Below are positions 21,837-26,430 of a stretch of 64,000 nt of DNA, piece after piece; positions within the stretch are counted from its first letter, which is position 1, and every line of letters begins with the position of its first letter. The notes beneath the pieces are model-generated. The model saw nothing but the letters and a program-made list of their open reading frames with translations, had not been told where the DNA came from and did no database searches. Origin of the DNA: Bacteriovorax sp. BSW11_IV (GTDB taxonomy: Bacteria > Bdellovibrionota > Bacteriovoracia > Bacteriovoracales > Bacteriovoracaceae); assembly GCF_000447755.1 (NCBI RefSeq), contig NZ_AUNE01000050.1, positions 62,001 to 126,000 of the forward strand, given 5' to 3'. The position numbers were made by a program, and so were the translations under genes.

Positions 21837-21862
21837 AAAAGGGAGCGTTTGCTCCCTTTTTT
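21835..21862. terminator. Bidirectional intrinsic terminator
   Basis: A 12-bp stem (AAAAAAGGGAGC and GCTCCCTTTTTT, loop GTTT) lies exactly between two convergent stop codons. Confidence 0.92.
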
Positions 21863-24044
21863 ATTTGTAAAATGCTTGTCTTGCTTTTTGAAGTTTTTGG
21901 TAGCTTTCAATGAGCTTTAGATGCTTGTCCAATCCTTCTAGCTTTAAACTTGTTGGCGTCAATCCGTAGAATTTAATATCTCCGTTAACAGTTCCTACAA
22001 CATCATTCATAAGCTCTTCGCCATACATCCTTGAAAGATTTAGCAAGTAATCTTCAATCTCTAACTCATCAGAAAGAGCAATGTCTAAGGCAATATTTAA
22101 GGCCTGATAGAATCTTTTTCTCTCGGCCGAGTTATCGTTGAAAGTCATAATAGATTCAACATATTCTTTGGCCTCATCTAATTGATTGAGAGCAAGATAG
22201 CATAGGGCCTTCAACTCACCGATGACAAGTTGTCCCCAAGCAGAGTTTTCATCAAATGAAATTCCAATGAGCTCTGATACAGGCATATAATTATCAATTT
22301 CACTATCTTCAAGATTTTTGACAAGTTTTTTAAGGGCCTTCTTATCAAGAGAGTGAATACTCAAAATATCTTCACGAAACTTTAGAGCTTGGTTGTGATT
22401 ATCCCAGATAAGATCTTCAGCAAGATAAATTTCAGAATAATCTGGAACTAGGATACGACATGCTTTTGCTCCTAATTCTTCATAATCAGCGATATAGACT
22501 TCTTTACCAAGTTCTTCGAGAATATTCATTAGGTAGTGGTATTCTTCTTCTGTTGAACCTGAGAAATCCCATTCAGAGAATTCAAAATCACTTTTCTCAC
22601 TGAAAAACTTCCAAGAGATAACACCTGTTGAGTCGATGAAGTGATCGATAATATTATTATGTTCTTTAATGGCAAATTCATTAAATGTTGGTGGAAGAAC
22701 ATCGTTCATCCCTTCAAAGCTTCTTCCTTGTAGAAGTTCGGTTAAGCTTCTTTCAAGGGCCACTTCAAATTTCGGGTGTGCACCAAATGATGCAAATACA
22801 CCACCATTTCTCGGATTCATTAAAGTTACACACATTACCGGAAACTGCCCGCCTAACGAAGCGTCTTTCACTAGAATAGGAAACCCTTCGGACTCGAGCT
22901 TATTAATACCTTCAACAATTTTAGGATATTTTGCTAAAACTTCTTTTGGAACATCTGGTAGAGTGATCTCTTCAGTAATGATTTGATTTTTTACTGCTCT
23001 TTCAAATATTTCAGAAAGCGATTGGACGCGCGCCTCATATGCCGTATTCCCAGCACTCATACCATTACTAACGAAAAGATTTCCTATGAGATTCACTGGA
23101 ATATAAACACTTTGTCCATCAGATTGACGCGTAAAAGGTAGTGCGCAAATTCCTCTTTGAGTATTACCTGAATTAGTATCTATGAGATGTGATGCTTTTA
23201 AATCTCCATCGTTACCATATACTTCTAAAAGAAGTTCATCCATTAGGCCTTGTGGCAATGAATCTTTAGGACCTGGTTTAAACCATTTTTCATTTGGATA
23301 GTGAACAAATTCACTATTGGCAATTTCCTCTCCGAGATAGAAGTCATTATAGAAGTAGTTATTGCTAATTCTTTCTAGGTATTCGCCTAAGGCCGAACAT
23401 AAAGCGGCATCTTTTGTTGCACCTTTTCCATTTGTATAACACATCGGAGAGTCAGCATCACGAATATGAACAGACCATACATGAGGGACTTGATTTCTCC
23501 ATGAGGCCACTTCGATTTTAATTCCAAGATCATCTAAGAGTGCCGTCATATTGGCAATCGTCTCTTCAAGGGAGCAATCTTTCCCTAGAATCATTGTCTT
23601 TGATTCACCATCAGTTTTCTTTTCAAACATCAAGTTGGAATCAACTCCTAAAACATCTTTTGCTTCAATCTGAAATTGTGGAGAAGTTTGAATAACTTTC
23701 TTTACAGTACAACGATCCATTGCGCGAAGAATTCCTTCACGATCGTGTTCTGAAATACTCTCAGGAAGTTCAATTTGAATATTGAAAATTTGGTTGTATC
23801 TATTTTCAGGATCAACAATATTATTCTGGCTAACTTTGATATCGTCAGTAGGAATATTGCGGGCCTTGCAATAGACTTTTACAAAGTACGCTGCACATAG
23901 AGCTGACGAGGCCAAGAAATAGTCAAAGGGACTAGGGGCCGTGCCGTCGCCCTTGTAGCGAACAGGTTGATCGGTTGTTATTGTGAAGTCATCAAAGCTG
24001 GCTTCTAGTTTTAAATTATCTAAAAATCTTACGTTTACTTGCAT
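21861..24044 (-). CDS. OsmC-YcaO fusion protein with a helical tail
   Basis: A 727-residue cytoplasmic protein. Residues 1-135 form an OsmC-like domain (opening VRFLDNLKLEASFDDF, then SPFDYFLASSALCAAYFV), the YcaO domain spans about 155-590, and a TPR-like helical tail ends the protein. This matches the TIGR03549 family of OsmC/YcaO proteins. YcaO domains activate backbone amides with ATP; E. coli YcaO is linked to beta-methylthiolation of ribosomal protein S12. No precursor peptide, dehydrogenase or maturation gene lies nearby, so a RiPP pathway is unlikely. A LysR-type gene lies directly upstream in the same direction and may control it. Confidence 0.9.
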   Translation of the reverse strand: MQVNVRFLDNLKLEASFDDFTITTDQPVRYKGDGTAPSPFDYFLASSALCAAYFVKVYCKARNIPTDDIKVSQNNIVDPENRYNQIFNIQIELPESISEHDREGILRAMDRCTVKKVIQTSPQFQIEAKDVLGVDSNLMFEKKTDGESKTMILGKDCSLEETIANMTALLDDLGIKIEVASWRNQVPHVWSVHIRDADSPMCYTNGKGATKDAALCSALGEYLERISNNYFYNDFYLGEEIANSEFVHYPNEKWFKPGPKDSLPQGLMDELLLEVYGNDGDLKASHLIDTNSGNTQRGICALPFTRQSDGQSVYIPVNLIGNLFVSNGMSAGNTAYEARVQSLSEIFERAVKNQIITEEITLPDVPKEVLAKYPKIVEGINKLESEGFPILVKDASLGGQFPVMCVTLMNPRNGGVFASFGAHPKFEVALERSLTELLQGRSFEGMNDVLPPTFNEFAIKEHNNIIDHFIDSTGVISWKFFSEKSDFEFSEWDFSGSTEEEYHYLMNILEELGKEVYIADYEELGAKACRILVPDYSEIYLAEDLIWDNHNQALKFREDILSIHSLDKKALKKLVKNLEDSEIDNYMPVSELIGISFDENSAWGQLVIGELKALCYLALNQLDEAKEYVESIMTFNDNSAERKRFYQALNIALDIALSDELEIEDYLLNLSRMYGEELMNDVVGTVNGDIKFYGLTPTSLKLEGLDKHLKLIESYQKLQKARQAFYK

Positions 24045-24130: not shown

Positions 24131-25003
24131 CTAAGATAATGAACGCAGTAATTTCCCCAATTTTTTCATGAGAATATCTTCTTTAGAGTTTTTTCTCTTA
24201 ATCAAGAAAATCTCTTGGGAATTATGAATTCCTTTGGGCATAGGAATTTCAATGAGCTTAAATTTACTATGAACAACTTCATTGTGCCTTTGCACGACAA
24301 AATTTGGAAAATAGCCAACGGCCAGTCCTTTTCTGACAAGGGCCAGTGCTGTTTCCATGAGGTTAACACTGTACTTAACAAGTCGAGGAATCTTTCCATC
24401 TGGCCAGCCATCTAGGCCATCGGCCTTGGTGGGAGTTCCACTAACACTGGCCATGGGAATAACAAAAGGGAGTTCGCTAATTTTGTGATTTTCAAATTTT
24501 GTCTTACCAAAAATTCCCATTTTTATTGTCGCAACTTTTAAGTGATCAAGCTCAGGATGGGGGATGGGAATATAGGTTATGGCCAGATCAATATTTCCTG
24601 CCACGAGTTCTTGTTCCATTCGTCCAGGGATCATTTCGTGAAAGCTTAATTTGATATCTTCATCAAAAATTTCGGCAATAAAAGGACTTAGATAGGTTGA
24701 GAACACCTCAAAGGTTCCAATGCGACAAGTTTTTTGAAGTGAGATATTTTCATTGTGGGAAACTTTTTTAAGTGTCTCCACTTGTTGAAGAATGGTATCA
24801 ATTTCTTTTTCTAAGCGAAGTCCAGCTTCTGTGATACGGATACCGCGTCCATCTTTAGTAATTAGCTCAACACCTAGTTCATCTTCGAGGGAGCGAATAG
24901 ATTTAGAAAGTCCTGGGTGAGAAATTTTCAATAGATCAGCGGCCTCTCTTAAATTTTGAGTTTGAATGACGGCCTTGAAATGTCTTAATTTATTGGTATC
25001 CAT
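24131..25003 (-). CDS. LysR-type transcriptional regulator
   Basis: I choose the ATG at 25003 over the TTG at 25024. The first 60 residues form the LysR winged helix-turn-helix (LRHFKAVIQTQNLREAADLL, SKSIRSLEDELG), and residues 90-290 form the substrate-binding effector domain. The effector is unknown. It is transcribed toward the OsmC-YcaO gene 86 bases downstream and divergently from the leader-peptide/ThrRS unit, so either could be its target. Confidence 0.9.
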   Translation of the reverse strand: MDTNKLRHFKAVIQTQNLREAADLLKISHPGLSKSIRSLEDELGVELITKDGRGIRITEAGLRLEKEIDTILQQVETLKKVSHNENISLQKTCRIGTFEVFSTYLSPFIAEIFDEDIKLSFHEMIPGRMEQELVAGNIDLAITYIPIPHPELDHLKVATIKMGIFGKTKFENHKISELPFVIPMASVSGTPTKADGLDGWPDGKIPRLVKYSVNLMETALALVRKGLAVGYFPNFVVQRHNEVVHSKFKLIEIPMPKGIHNSQEIFLIKRKNSKEDILMKKLGKLLRSLS

Positions 25004-25110
25004 AAGTAACCAATGAGTTATCAAAATAACCTTTTAGTTTCAAGTAAGTTTATTCTATTGTGGAAAAAAATTGCCTTGAATTAAATTTTAAATACAGGTA
25101 GGATGACGTT

Positions 25111-25164
25111 ATGTTGAATATTAATATCATTCACCTATTCTCAACGACCATCACCACCCCTTAG
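25111..25164 (+). CDS. Threonine/isoleucine attenuator leader peptide
   Basis: A 17-codon frame, MLNINIIHLFSTTITTP, with AGGA seven bases before its ATG. It holds four Thr codons in its last six positions (Thr-Thr-Ile-Thr-Thr) and four Ile codons overall, much like the thrL peptide of E. coli. A hairpin overlaps its stop codon, and two terminator-like hairpins follow before the ThrRS gene. Ribosome stalling at Thr codons when charged tRNA-Thr is short would alter folding and favour read-through. The mechanism is inference; the codon run and hairpins are seen directly. Confidence 0.75.
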   Translation: MLNINIIHLFSTTITTP

Positions 25165-25168
25165 GGGT
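25156..25168 (+). promoter_or_regulatory. Leader hairpin over the peptide stop codon
   Basis: ACCCC, loop TTA, GGGGT. It covers the last Thr codon, the Pro codon and the stop, so a translating ribosome must melt it. Confidence 0.5.
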
Positions 25169-25185
25169 AATTTACATTCTTTTAT

Positions 25186-25216
25186 GTATGCTCATTGATA
25201 TTGAGTATACGTTTTT
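25186..25216 (+). terminator. Candidate attenuator terminator
   Basis: A 9-bp stem with one G-U pair (GTATGCTCA pairing with TGAGTATAC) is followed by GTTTTT. Leader bases 25121-25129 can pair with 25196-25204 in its loop and right arm (nine positions, one G-U), which offers an alternative fold. Confidence 0.55.
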
Positions 25217-25247
25217 AAGACACCACTACATTTATATTTACGGTAAC

Positions 25248-25266
25248 AGGATTTAGAATCCTTTTT
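25248..25266 (+). terminator. Second terminator-like hairpin before ThrRS
   Basis: AGGATT, loop TAG, AATCCT, then TTTT. The stem is short, but it stands right before the ribosome binding site TTGAGG of the ThrRS gene. Confidence 0.4.
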
Positions 25267-25284
25267 AATACATTTGAGGTTTAT

Positions 25285-26418
25285 ATGTATTTACCTGAAG
25301 ATCATCGCTCACTGGGAGCGAAGTACGACTTATTTTCTTTTTTTGAAGAGGCCCCAGGCTTTCCTGTTTGGCATGAAAATGGCCTAAGAATAAAAAATTC
25401 TCTTATTCAATATTGGCGTCAAATACATCGCGATAATGGTTACTTAGAAATGGAAAGCCCCATGATGCTCGATAAAGAGCTGTGGAAAAAATCTGGTCAC
25501 TGTGATTACTTTGAAGAAAATATGTTCTTTTCTTCAGTTGATAAGCGTGATTATGCCATTAAACCTATGAGCTGCCCTGGAGCTATTTTGGCATTTAATA
25601 GTAAAAGACGCTCGCACGCAGAACTACCTTTAAGATTTTGTGAACTAGGTCATGTTCATCGTAATGAGCAGTCAGGTGCCCTTCATGGACTTTTACGAGT
25701 TCGCTCGTTTGTTCAAGATGATGCCCATATTTTTTGTGCAGGAGAAGATTTATTGAATGAAGTTTCTAATATCATCTCCTTGATTCAAATGATTATGCAA
25801 AAGTGCGGATTACCAGATTATCATTTTGAGCTTTCTGTGCGCGATAAAAGAAAGAAACAATATATGGGTGAAGATCAAGATTGGAAGTATTGTGAGGATA
25901 TCTTAGAGAAAGCTCTTATTCGCTCGAAACTTGATGTTCATAAAAAAGAGGGGGAGGCCAAATTTTATGGGCCTTCATTAGATCTTCACGTTAAAGACCG
26001 TCATGGGAGATCATGGCAATGCTCAACAATCCAATTGGACTTTAATTTACCGAATCGTTTTGGACTTCATTATTACGATAAAGAAGGCAATAAGAGAGTT
26101 CCTTATATGCTCCATAGGGCCATTTTTGGTTCGATTGAGCGATTTATTGGAATGCTACTTGAACACTATGGCAAGAAGCTTCCTTTTTGGTTGCACCCTA
26201 ATCAGTATCGAATCTTGAATGTTTCACAAAATTCTTTAAATTATGCCAACTCACTTCTCATTGAATTAAGGGCAAAAGGACATTTTGTGGAAATAGATCA
26301 AAGTAGCGATCCATTAAAAGAAAAAGTTAAAAAAGCTCGTGAAGATATGGTTTATTCGATTATTGTTATTGGTGATAAAGAAGTCGAAGAGCAGAAGTAT
26401 GTGGTACAGGTCCTTTAG
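25285..26418 (+). CDS. Short threonyl-tRNA synthetase without TGS and editing domains
   Basis: A 377-residue class II synthetase that aligns with the catalytic core and anticodon-binding domain of bacterial ThrRS (about 640 residues). It starts at the DHRxLG segment, so both the TGS and the editing domain are absent, and it ends about 35 residues early. The zinc ligands are kept (Cys97 in SCPG, His148 in DDAHIF, His278 in MLHRAI), as are motif 2 (HRNEQSGALHGL) and motif 3 (GSIERFIG). The family's FYGPK motif reads FYGPS (Ser231). It is not next to infC-rpmI-rplT, so it is probably a second ThrRS. The leader peptide upstream points to control by charged tRNA-Thr. Editing-free ThrRS types are known in archaea and cyanobacteria. 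Confidence 0.88.
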   Translation: MYLPEDHRSLGAKYDLFSFFEEAPGFPVWHENGLRIKNSLIQYWRQIHRDNGYLEMESPMMLDKELWKKSGHCDYFEENMFFSSVDKRDYAIKPMSCPGAILAFNSKRRSHAELPLRFCELGHVHRNEQSGALHGLLRVRSFVQDDAHIFCAGEDLLNEVSNIISLIQMIMQKCGLPDYHFELSVRDKRKKQYMGEDQDWKYCEDILEKALIRSKLDVHKKEGEAKFYGPSLDLHVKDRHGRSWQCSTIQLDFNLPNRFGLHYYDKEGNKRVPYMLHRAIFGSIERFIGMLLEHYGKKLPFWLHPNQYRILNVSQNSLNYANSLLIELRAKGHFVEIDQSSDPLKEKVKKAREDMVYSIIVIGDKEVEEQKYVVQVL

Positions 26419-26430
26419 GACCTGTACTTT
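26404..26430 (+). terminator. Hairpin overlapping the ThrRS stop codon
   Basis: A 10-bp perfect stem (GTACAGGTCC and GGACCTGTAC, loop TTTA) includes the last codons and the stop of the ThrRS gene. The tail is CTTTAAAAA on the outside of the stem, so the T-run is weak. Confidence 0.6.

Follow-up and report, generated by a model that had tools for sequence, protein, structure and literature searches.

The short threonyl-tRNA synthetase (ThrRS) gene of Bacteriovorax sp. BSW11_IV is very probably controlled by a ribosome-mediated threonine sensor. The gene, thrS, is located in the window, i.e. the whole stretch of 64,000 nucleotides that was analysed, and encodes a spare ThrRS without an editing domain. 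The sensor part, deduced from sequence comparison, is well supported; termination or translation are the candidate outputs. The following features were assigned in the window:

25076-25104 (+): probable promoter with the -35 box TTGAAT (25076-25081), a 17-nt spacer and the -10 box TAGGAT (25099-25104), followed after 6 nt by the leader ATG; read from the sequence, position backed by relatives
25111-25164 (+): leader peptide gene of 17 codons, MLNINIIHLFSTTITTP, from ATG at 25111 to TAG at 25162-25164; read from the sequence, with the same kind of ORF at 38 of 38 short-thrS loci
25156-25168 (+): hairpin 1 (hp1), ACCCC-TTA-GGGGT, reaching from the last Thr codon, where its 5' arm starts, over the stop codon (25162-25164), which lies in loop and 3' arm; fold, combined z of -7.8 over 38 loci
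25169-25183 (+): hp1-hp2 spacer, rich in U and poor in G, 10-17 nt long in relatives; base profile
25184-25212 (+): hairpin 2 (hp2), an 11-bp stem with TTTT behind it (25213-25216), resembling a terminator in the window; fold, combined z of -13.1, covariation
25248-25266 (+): hairpin 3 (hp3), AGGATTTAGAATCCT (stem 25248-25262) followed by TTTT, terminator-like; fold, combined z of -6.0 for the corresponding region adjoining the thrS start
25276-25284 (+): Shine-Dalgarno (SD) sequence GAGG (25276-25279) and U-rich TTTAT directly before the thrS start; comparison with other genes
25285-26418 (+): short ThrRS, 377 aa, class II core and anticodon-binding domain; TIGR00418, Pfam, alignment

The short ThrRS scores 442 bits against TIGR00418 (cut-off 384). 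The match begins only at profile position 171 and Pfam reports PF00587 and PF03129 only, which means that the TGS and the editing (N2) domains are absent. Residues C97, D146, H148 and H277, which we take to be the Thr/Zn-site residues after E. coli ThrRS, are invariant in the alignment, and the best solved relatives are ThrRSs. Since a full-length ThrRS is encoded on another contig of the same genome, the window enzyme is a second, spare copy. At its end, it is about 15-35 residues shorter than its relatives (390-412 aa), so that the anticodon-binding domain is clipped. A perfect 10-bp palindrome, GTACAGGTCC-TTTA-GGACCTGTAC, followed by TTTAAAA spans the thrS stop codon (26404-26427) and looks like a terminator, possibly a bidirectional one. 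Divergent to the leader-thrS unit, a gene for a LysR-type regulator (24131-25003, minus strand) was found, which adjoins a gene for an OsmC-YcaO fusion protein (21861-24044, minus strand; TIGR03549, 1266 bits).

The element, composed of the short Thr peptide, hp1 and hp2, is present at each of the 38 short-thrS loci across the Bdellovibrionota whose upstream DNA could be read, whereas none of 40 upstream regions of full-length thrS genes that were examined carries a hairpin leader. Twelve loci, with spacer and loop lengths evened out for the alignment, served to build an RNA covariance model. It recovers the remaining leaders and yields only one weak, misplaced match (L027) among the full-length thrS loci. 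In 369 Bdellovibrionota genomes, all its matches with E < 2.2e-4 precede a short thrS, eight of them at new loci; weaker matches are a mixture of known leaders and probable chance matches. In the window's genome, the model detected no Thr leader besides the window element. A DNA pattern for the leader matched in nine genomes, in eight of them at short-thrS leaders (the ninth genome is G057), and the pattern ACCACCCCNTANGGGG, which has one base too many, gave four sites including an unrelated one (L051). Short ThrRSs are patchily distributed: they are clear in 14 of the 129 genomes of the window's family, and at least three further families of the phylum contain them as well. The reading frame of one short thrS (L122) is broken in the draft genome. 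A candidate for a short ThrRS without leader (G352) proved to be a broken full-length gene. No conserved neighbour genes were seen around the short-thrS loci. In G039, the short thrS (L048, G039:C4 3287-9375) comes after putative MetRS and SerRS genes, as judged by their sequence starts, and would belong to a small synthetase cluster. A plasmid search returned only ThrRSs with less than 60% identity. The Rfam Thr_leader covariance model did not match the element, even with E values of up to 10 allowed, and the T-box covariance model gave no match at the gathering score or at E up to 10.

The 17-codon ORF at 25111-25164, which ends 120 nt upstream of the ThrRS gene, contains four Thr and four Ile codons, as the earlier note had described; the Thr codons run ACG ACC. 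ACC ACC. Across the loci, the peptides are variable nearly throughout, with ends such as ...STTITTP, ...ASTTTTP, ...SLFTTP, ...FKTTRKG or ...YLTTLRG. The constant feature are Thr codons that abut hp1 near the end of the peptide. They are found at every locus, a point on which the leader hypothesis had been staked beforehand, while the Ile codons are not conserved. Of the Thr/Ile-rich frame expected upstream of the orthologs, the Thr half is thus present at 38 of 38 loci and the Ile half varies. This does not support the joint Thr/Ile sensor that had been suggested and makes the leader look like a sensor for Thr. Among the Thr codons of 31 leaders counted, 78 of 92 (85%) are ACC, the rarest Thr codon of the window ORFs (76 of 823). 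This bias is in part forced by the hairpin sequence. One leader (L133) apparently starts with GTG. A TnaC-like arrest at Pro and stop codon was considered and rejected, as Pro is not conserved in L040, L041, L084, L086 and L087. Hairpin 1 is retained where the last codon does not specify Pro (L040, L041) and also where the stop codon lies behind it (L084, L085, L087, L088). Therefore, selection acts on the structure and not on a Pro-stop combination.

The position of the promoter suggests how the leader may be transcribed and translated. In 14 of 30 loci, the -10 box of the best sigma70-like promoter within 210 nt ends 5-9 nt before the leader AUG, compared to 3.2% in shuffled sequences. This places +1 on the A of the AUG or directly beside it. 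Binding to the anti-SD sequence before the leader AUG averages -1.1 kcal/mol (random: -1.4 kcal/mol) and amounts to -6.6 kcal/mol before the thrS start (30 loci each). The leader peptide is probably translated from a leaderless mRNA. Unlike the family mean, the window leader does show SD complementarity (-6.5 kcal/mol). The window sequence AGGTAGGA had been regarded as a good ribosome binding site; it overlaps the hexamer TAGGAT, is not conserved among relatives and probably represents the -10 box. As the top-scoring site of the promoter scan in the window differs from TTGAAT-17-TAGGAT, the assignment of the window -10 box leans on the relatives. The case for a -10 box placed at the leader AUG is strong for the family and moderate for the window.

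The hairpins are conserved, too. Compared with dinucleotide shuffles, the combined z-scores over 38 loci are -7.8 for hp1, -13.1 for hp2 and -6.0 for the stretch adjoining the thrS start. At hp2, two-sided changes affect all six modelled pairs, with 70 cells compared to 22 in shuffles, in a fitted alignment that leans toward the structure and contains a few chance rows; the z-scores are independent of this alignment. The hairpin reported over the leader stop codon corresponds to hp1, and the two terminator-like hairpins proposed at 25186-25216 and 25248-25266 were recovered as hp2 and hp3 with their TTTT tracts. Hairpins expected upstream of orthologs are present at all 38 short-thrS loci and are more stable than shuffles. 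In the window, both hp2 and hp3 are directly followed by a U-tract. Behind hp2, such an adjacent tract is confined to the window; most relatives have a U-rich stretch about 10 nt later, after a G-poor C/A-rich stretch. A larger terminator formed by the U-rich and A-rich flanks of hp2, as suggested by the base profile, was inconsistent among the loci. Immediately before the AUG, 66% of the short-thrS loci have a U-rich run (at least four of five bases U), compared to 11.5% of other genes, and the thrS SD sequence is less often unpaired than that of other genes (0.24 vs 0.41, p = 1e-4). Both features point to an expression platform near the thrS start, which may be either a sequestering hairpin or a terminator that overlaps with the ribosome binding site.

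The following mechanism is proposed. The transcript would begin at or beside the AUG of the short gene for the Thr peptide, in which the Thr codons would lie against hp1 and the stop codon inside hp1 or shortly behind it; hp2, often hp3 and then thrS would follow. When Thr-tRNA(Thr) is plentiful, the ribosome would reach the stop codon and depart, so that hp1 and hp2 could fold; early termination, occlusion of the ribosome binding site or both would keep thrS expression low. Once uncharged tRNA(Thr) accumulates, be it by threonine shortage or because the main ThrRS fails or is inhibited, the ribosome would halt on the ACC codons and hold hp1 open, and thrS would be expressed. Because the last Thr codon contributes the first bases of the hp1 5' arm, a ribosome at this position must open hp1 for geometric reasons. 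This was also seen in folds of 26 leaders in which a ribosome occupied one Thr codon after the other: A ribosome covering the 5' arm removes hp1. In about 20 of the 26 loci, including the window, hp2 persists in the presence of the stalled ribosome (probability 0.96-0.97 in the window), and the route from the stall to thrS output is thus not explained by the folds. Control is probably exerted mainly on transcription elongation or termination; control of thrS translation appears considerably less probable.

Several alternatives have to be weighed against this background. That the short ORF and the hairpins arose by chance in AT-rich upstream DNA has a negligible probability. Taken alone, the window fold would allow it (z = -2.0; 5 of 200 shuffles equally stable), but conservation at 38 of 38 loci, hairpins beyond those of shuffles and their absence from all 40 control regions argue against it. 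If the leader worked as a classical four-segment attenuator of the thrL/hisL type, hp1 would be 1:2 and hp2 the 3:4 terminator, and upon stalling the GGGG arm of hp1 would pair with the C-rich 5' arm of hp2 (2:3). The 5' arm of hp2 indeed contains more C than G in 17 loci, as many in 4 and fewer in 5, the swap is seen at some ribosome positions in folds of L006, L033, L034, L007, L039 and L082, and in the window TTTT follows hp2. Nevertheless, hp2 is mostly not displaced and an adjacent U-tract is the exception among the loci, so that we regard this design, which the earlier note had assumed, as unlikely; as a general rule, the 2:3 switch is ruled out by the stalled-ribosome folds. The antiterminator that had been proposed between 25121-25129 and 25196-25204 fared similarly: The complementarity exists (nine pairs, one of them G-U), but a displacement of hp2 is absent from these folds.

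Alternatively, the output might be translational, with a hairpin that includes the thrS SD sequence closing thrS until stalling in the leader rearranges the RNA. The pairing of the SD sequence fits this alternative, and in L034, L033, L007 and L042 the SD sequence lies within hp3. Moreover, a ribosome on the leader increases SD accessibility from 0.32 to 0.38 (p = 0.002). This gain is, however, small and may be accounted for by the masking of upstream bases alone, and no conserved partner joining hp1 to hp3 was found; translational attenuation can be considered a possibility of lower rank. Rho-dependent attenuation would do without an intrinsic terminator: After departure of the ribosome, Rho would load downstream of hp2, where the RNA is rich in C and A and poor in G, and end transcription, and a ribosome held on the leader would alter loading. 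It would suit the majority of loci without a U-tract adjacent to hp2 and the 99 C versus 24 G in the first 15 nt behind hp2 (26 loci), and has also been raised for terminator-lacking mycobacterial cys leaders (PMC1262725). Yet base composition is weak evidence, the whole stretch from hp2 to the SD sequence is less skewed (264 C vs 181 G), and a ribosome on the leader would shield little of the RNA behind hp2, which makes Rho rather improbable.

The same kind of leader serves two lineages of short ThrRSs. In a tree of 82 ThrRS cores, short type A, to which the window enzyme belongs (ten loci), is located beside ordinary full-length ThrRSs. A long branch with full support separates them from short type B (21 loci), which groups with an atypical full-length ThrRS. 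This atypical enzyme (L102, L103, L100, L101) is found in G039, G040, G043 and G306 and does not group with the ordinary ThrRS of the phylum. Its short relatives contain an MNCPHHH-type motif. Types A and B are not sisters and both have the leader, which might be due to a gene exchange behind a standing leader, to a transfer of the leader or to a double origin. The latter is least likely, because the elements are closely alike.

A threonine synthase above the TIGR00260 cut-off is encoded in 5 of 18 genomes with the element, compared to 14 of 14 control genomes; it is absent in the window's genome (G000) and in 12 of the 17 others. Weaker matches exist in genomes below the cut-off, where a divergent enzyme is possible. 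A dependence of the genomes with the element on external threonine is possible. Since the window's genome has no thrC above the cut-off, tRNA(Thr) charging would be a natural point of control if threonine comes from outside, e.g. from prey. This suggests that proofreading-free ThrRS copies may be emergency enzymes, which are made only when tRNA(Thr) charging fails, an idea that ties starvation, mistranslation and predatory life together. We tentatively propose a leaderless, phylum-wide Thr attenuator of a new layout, with a ribosome-sensitive hp1 that encloses the stop codon, an undisplaced hp2 and two non-sister ThrRS lineages, as an emergency tRNA-charging system in predators mostly without a recognizable threonine synthase.

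To our knowledge, no leader peptide is known for any ThrRS and no attenuator in Bdellovibrionota. In the openly licensed papers searched, no description of either was found; the Thr leader peptide before an editing-free ThrRS, as first noted in the window, has been borne out and is conserved across the phylum. The best-known relative in design is thrL of enterobacteria, a short Thr-rich peptide gene followed by hairpins before the thrABC operon, which senses Thr and Ile and has an SD sequence and a U-tract terminator. Both systems share a short Thr-rich peptide and hairpins between peptide and controlled gene. By contrast, the element described here precedes a ThrRS gene instead of biosynthetic genes, only its Thr codons are conserved, it is probably leaderless and it has no match to Rfam Thr_leader. 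In Bacillus subtilis, the second ThrRS gene thrZ is under T-box control. Its product is an inducible spare ThrRS that answers uncharged tRNA(Thr), as is proposed here for the short ThrRS. However, a T-box binds the tRNA directly, whereas here no T-box was found and the sensor would be a translated ORF. Leader-peptide attenuators before synthetase genes are also present at pheST of gamma-proteobacteria.

Other examples are trpS2 and leuS of Streptomyces (PMC1262725) and hisS* of bacilli (PMC2965389). In all of them, including pheST, a synthetase gene is preceded by a leader peptide in which the cognate amino acid is abundant, so that the amino acid sensed matches the gene served; at trpS2 and hisS*, the leader precedes a paralogous synthetase copy, as here. 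They differ from the element in amino acid, in phylum and in their classical terminator hairpins, and the 38 loci provide a comparative set on attenuation without the textbook antiterminator. Two ThrRSs, the conditional one with impaired editing, are encoded in Anabaena (T1 and T2; PMC4787780). T2 is controlled by Zur and zinc without a leader peptide, whereas in the short ThrRSs the entire N-terminal editing part is missing. Leaderless attenuator ORFs are represented by trpL of Sinorhizobium meliloti (PMC7298713) and by mycobacterial polycysteine ORFs before cys genes (Canestrari 2020, cited in PMC13236596). With the Thr leader, if it is leaderless, they would have in common that the attenuator peptide is made from an mRNA beginning at AUG. 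They concern other amino acids and genes, and their leaderless state was shown experimentally, while that of the Thr leader is deduced from promoter position. The Thr leader is likely to add a case of leaderless attenuator peptides beyond rhizobia and mycobacteria.
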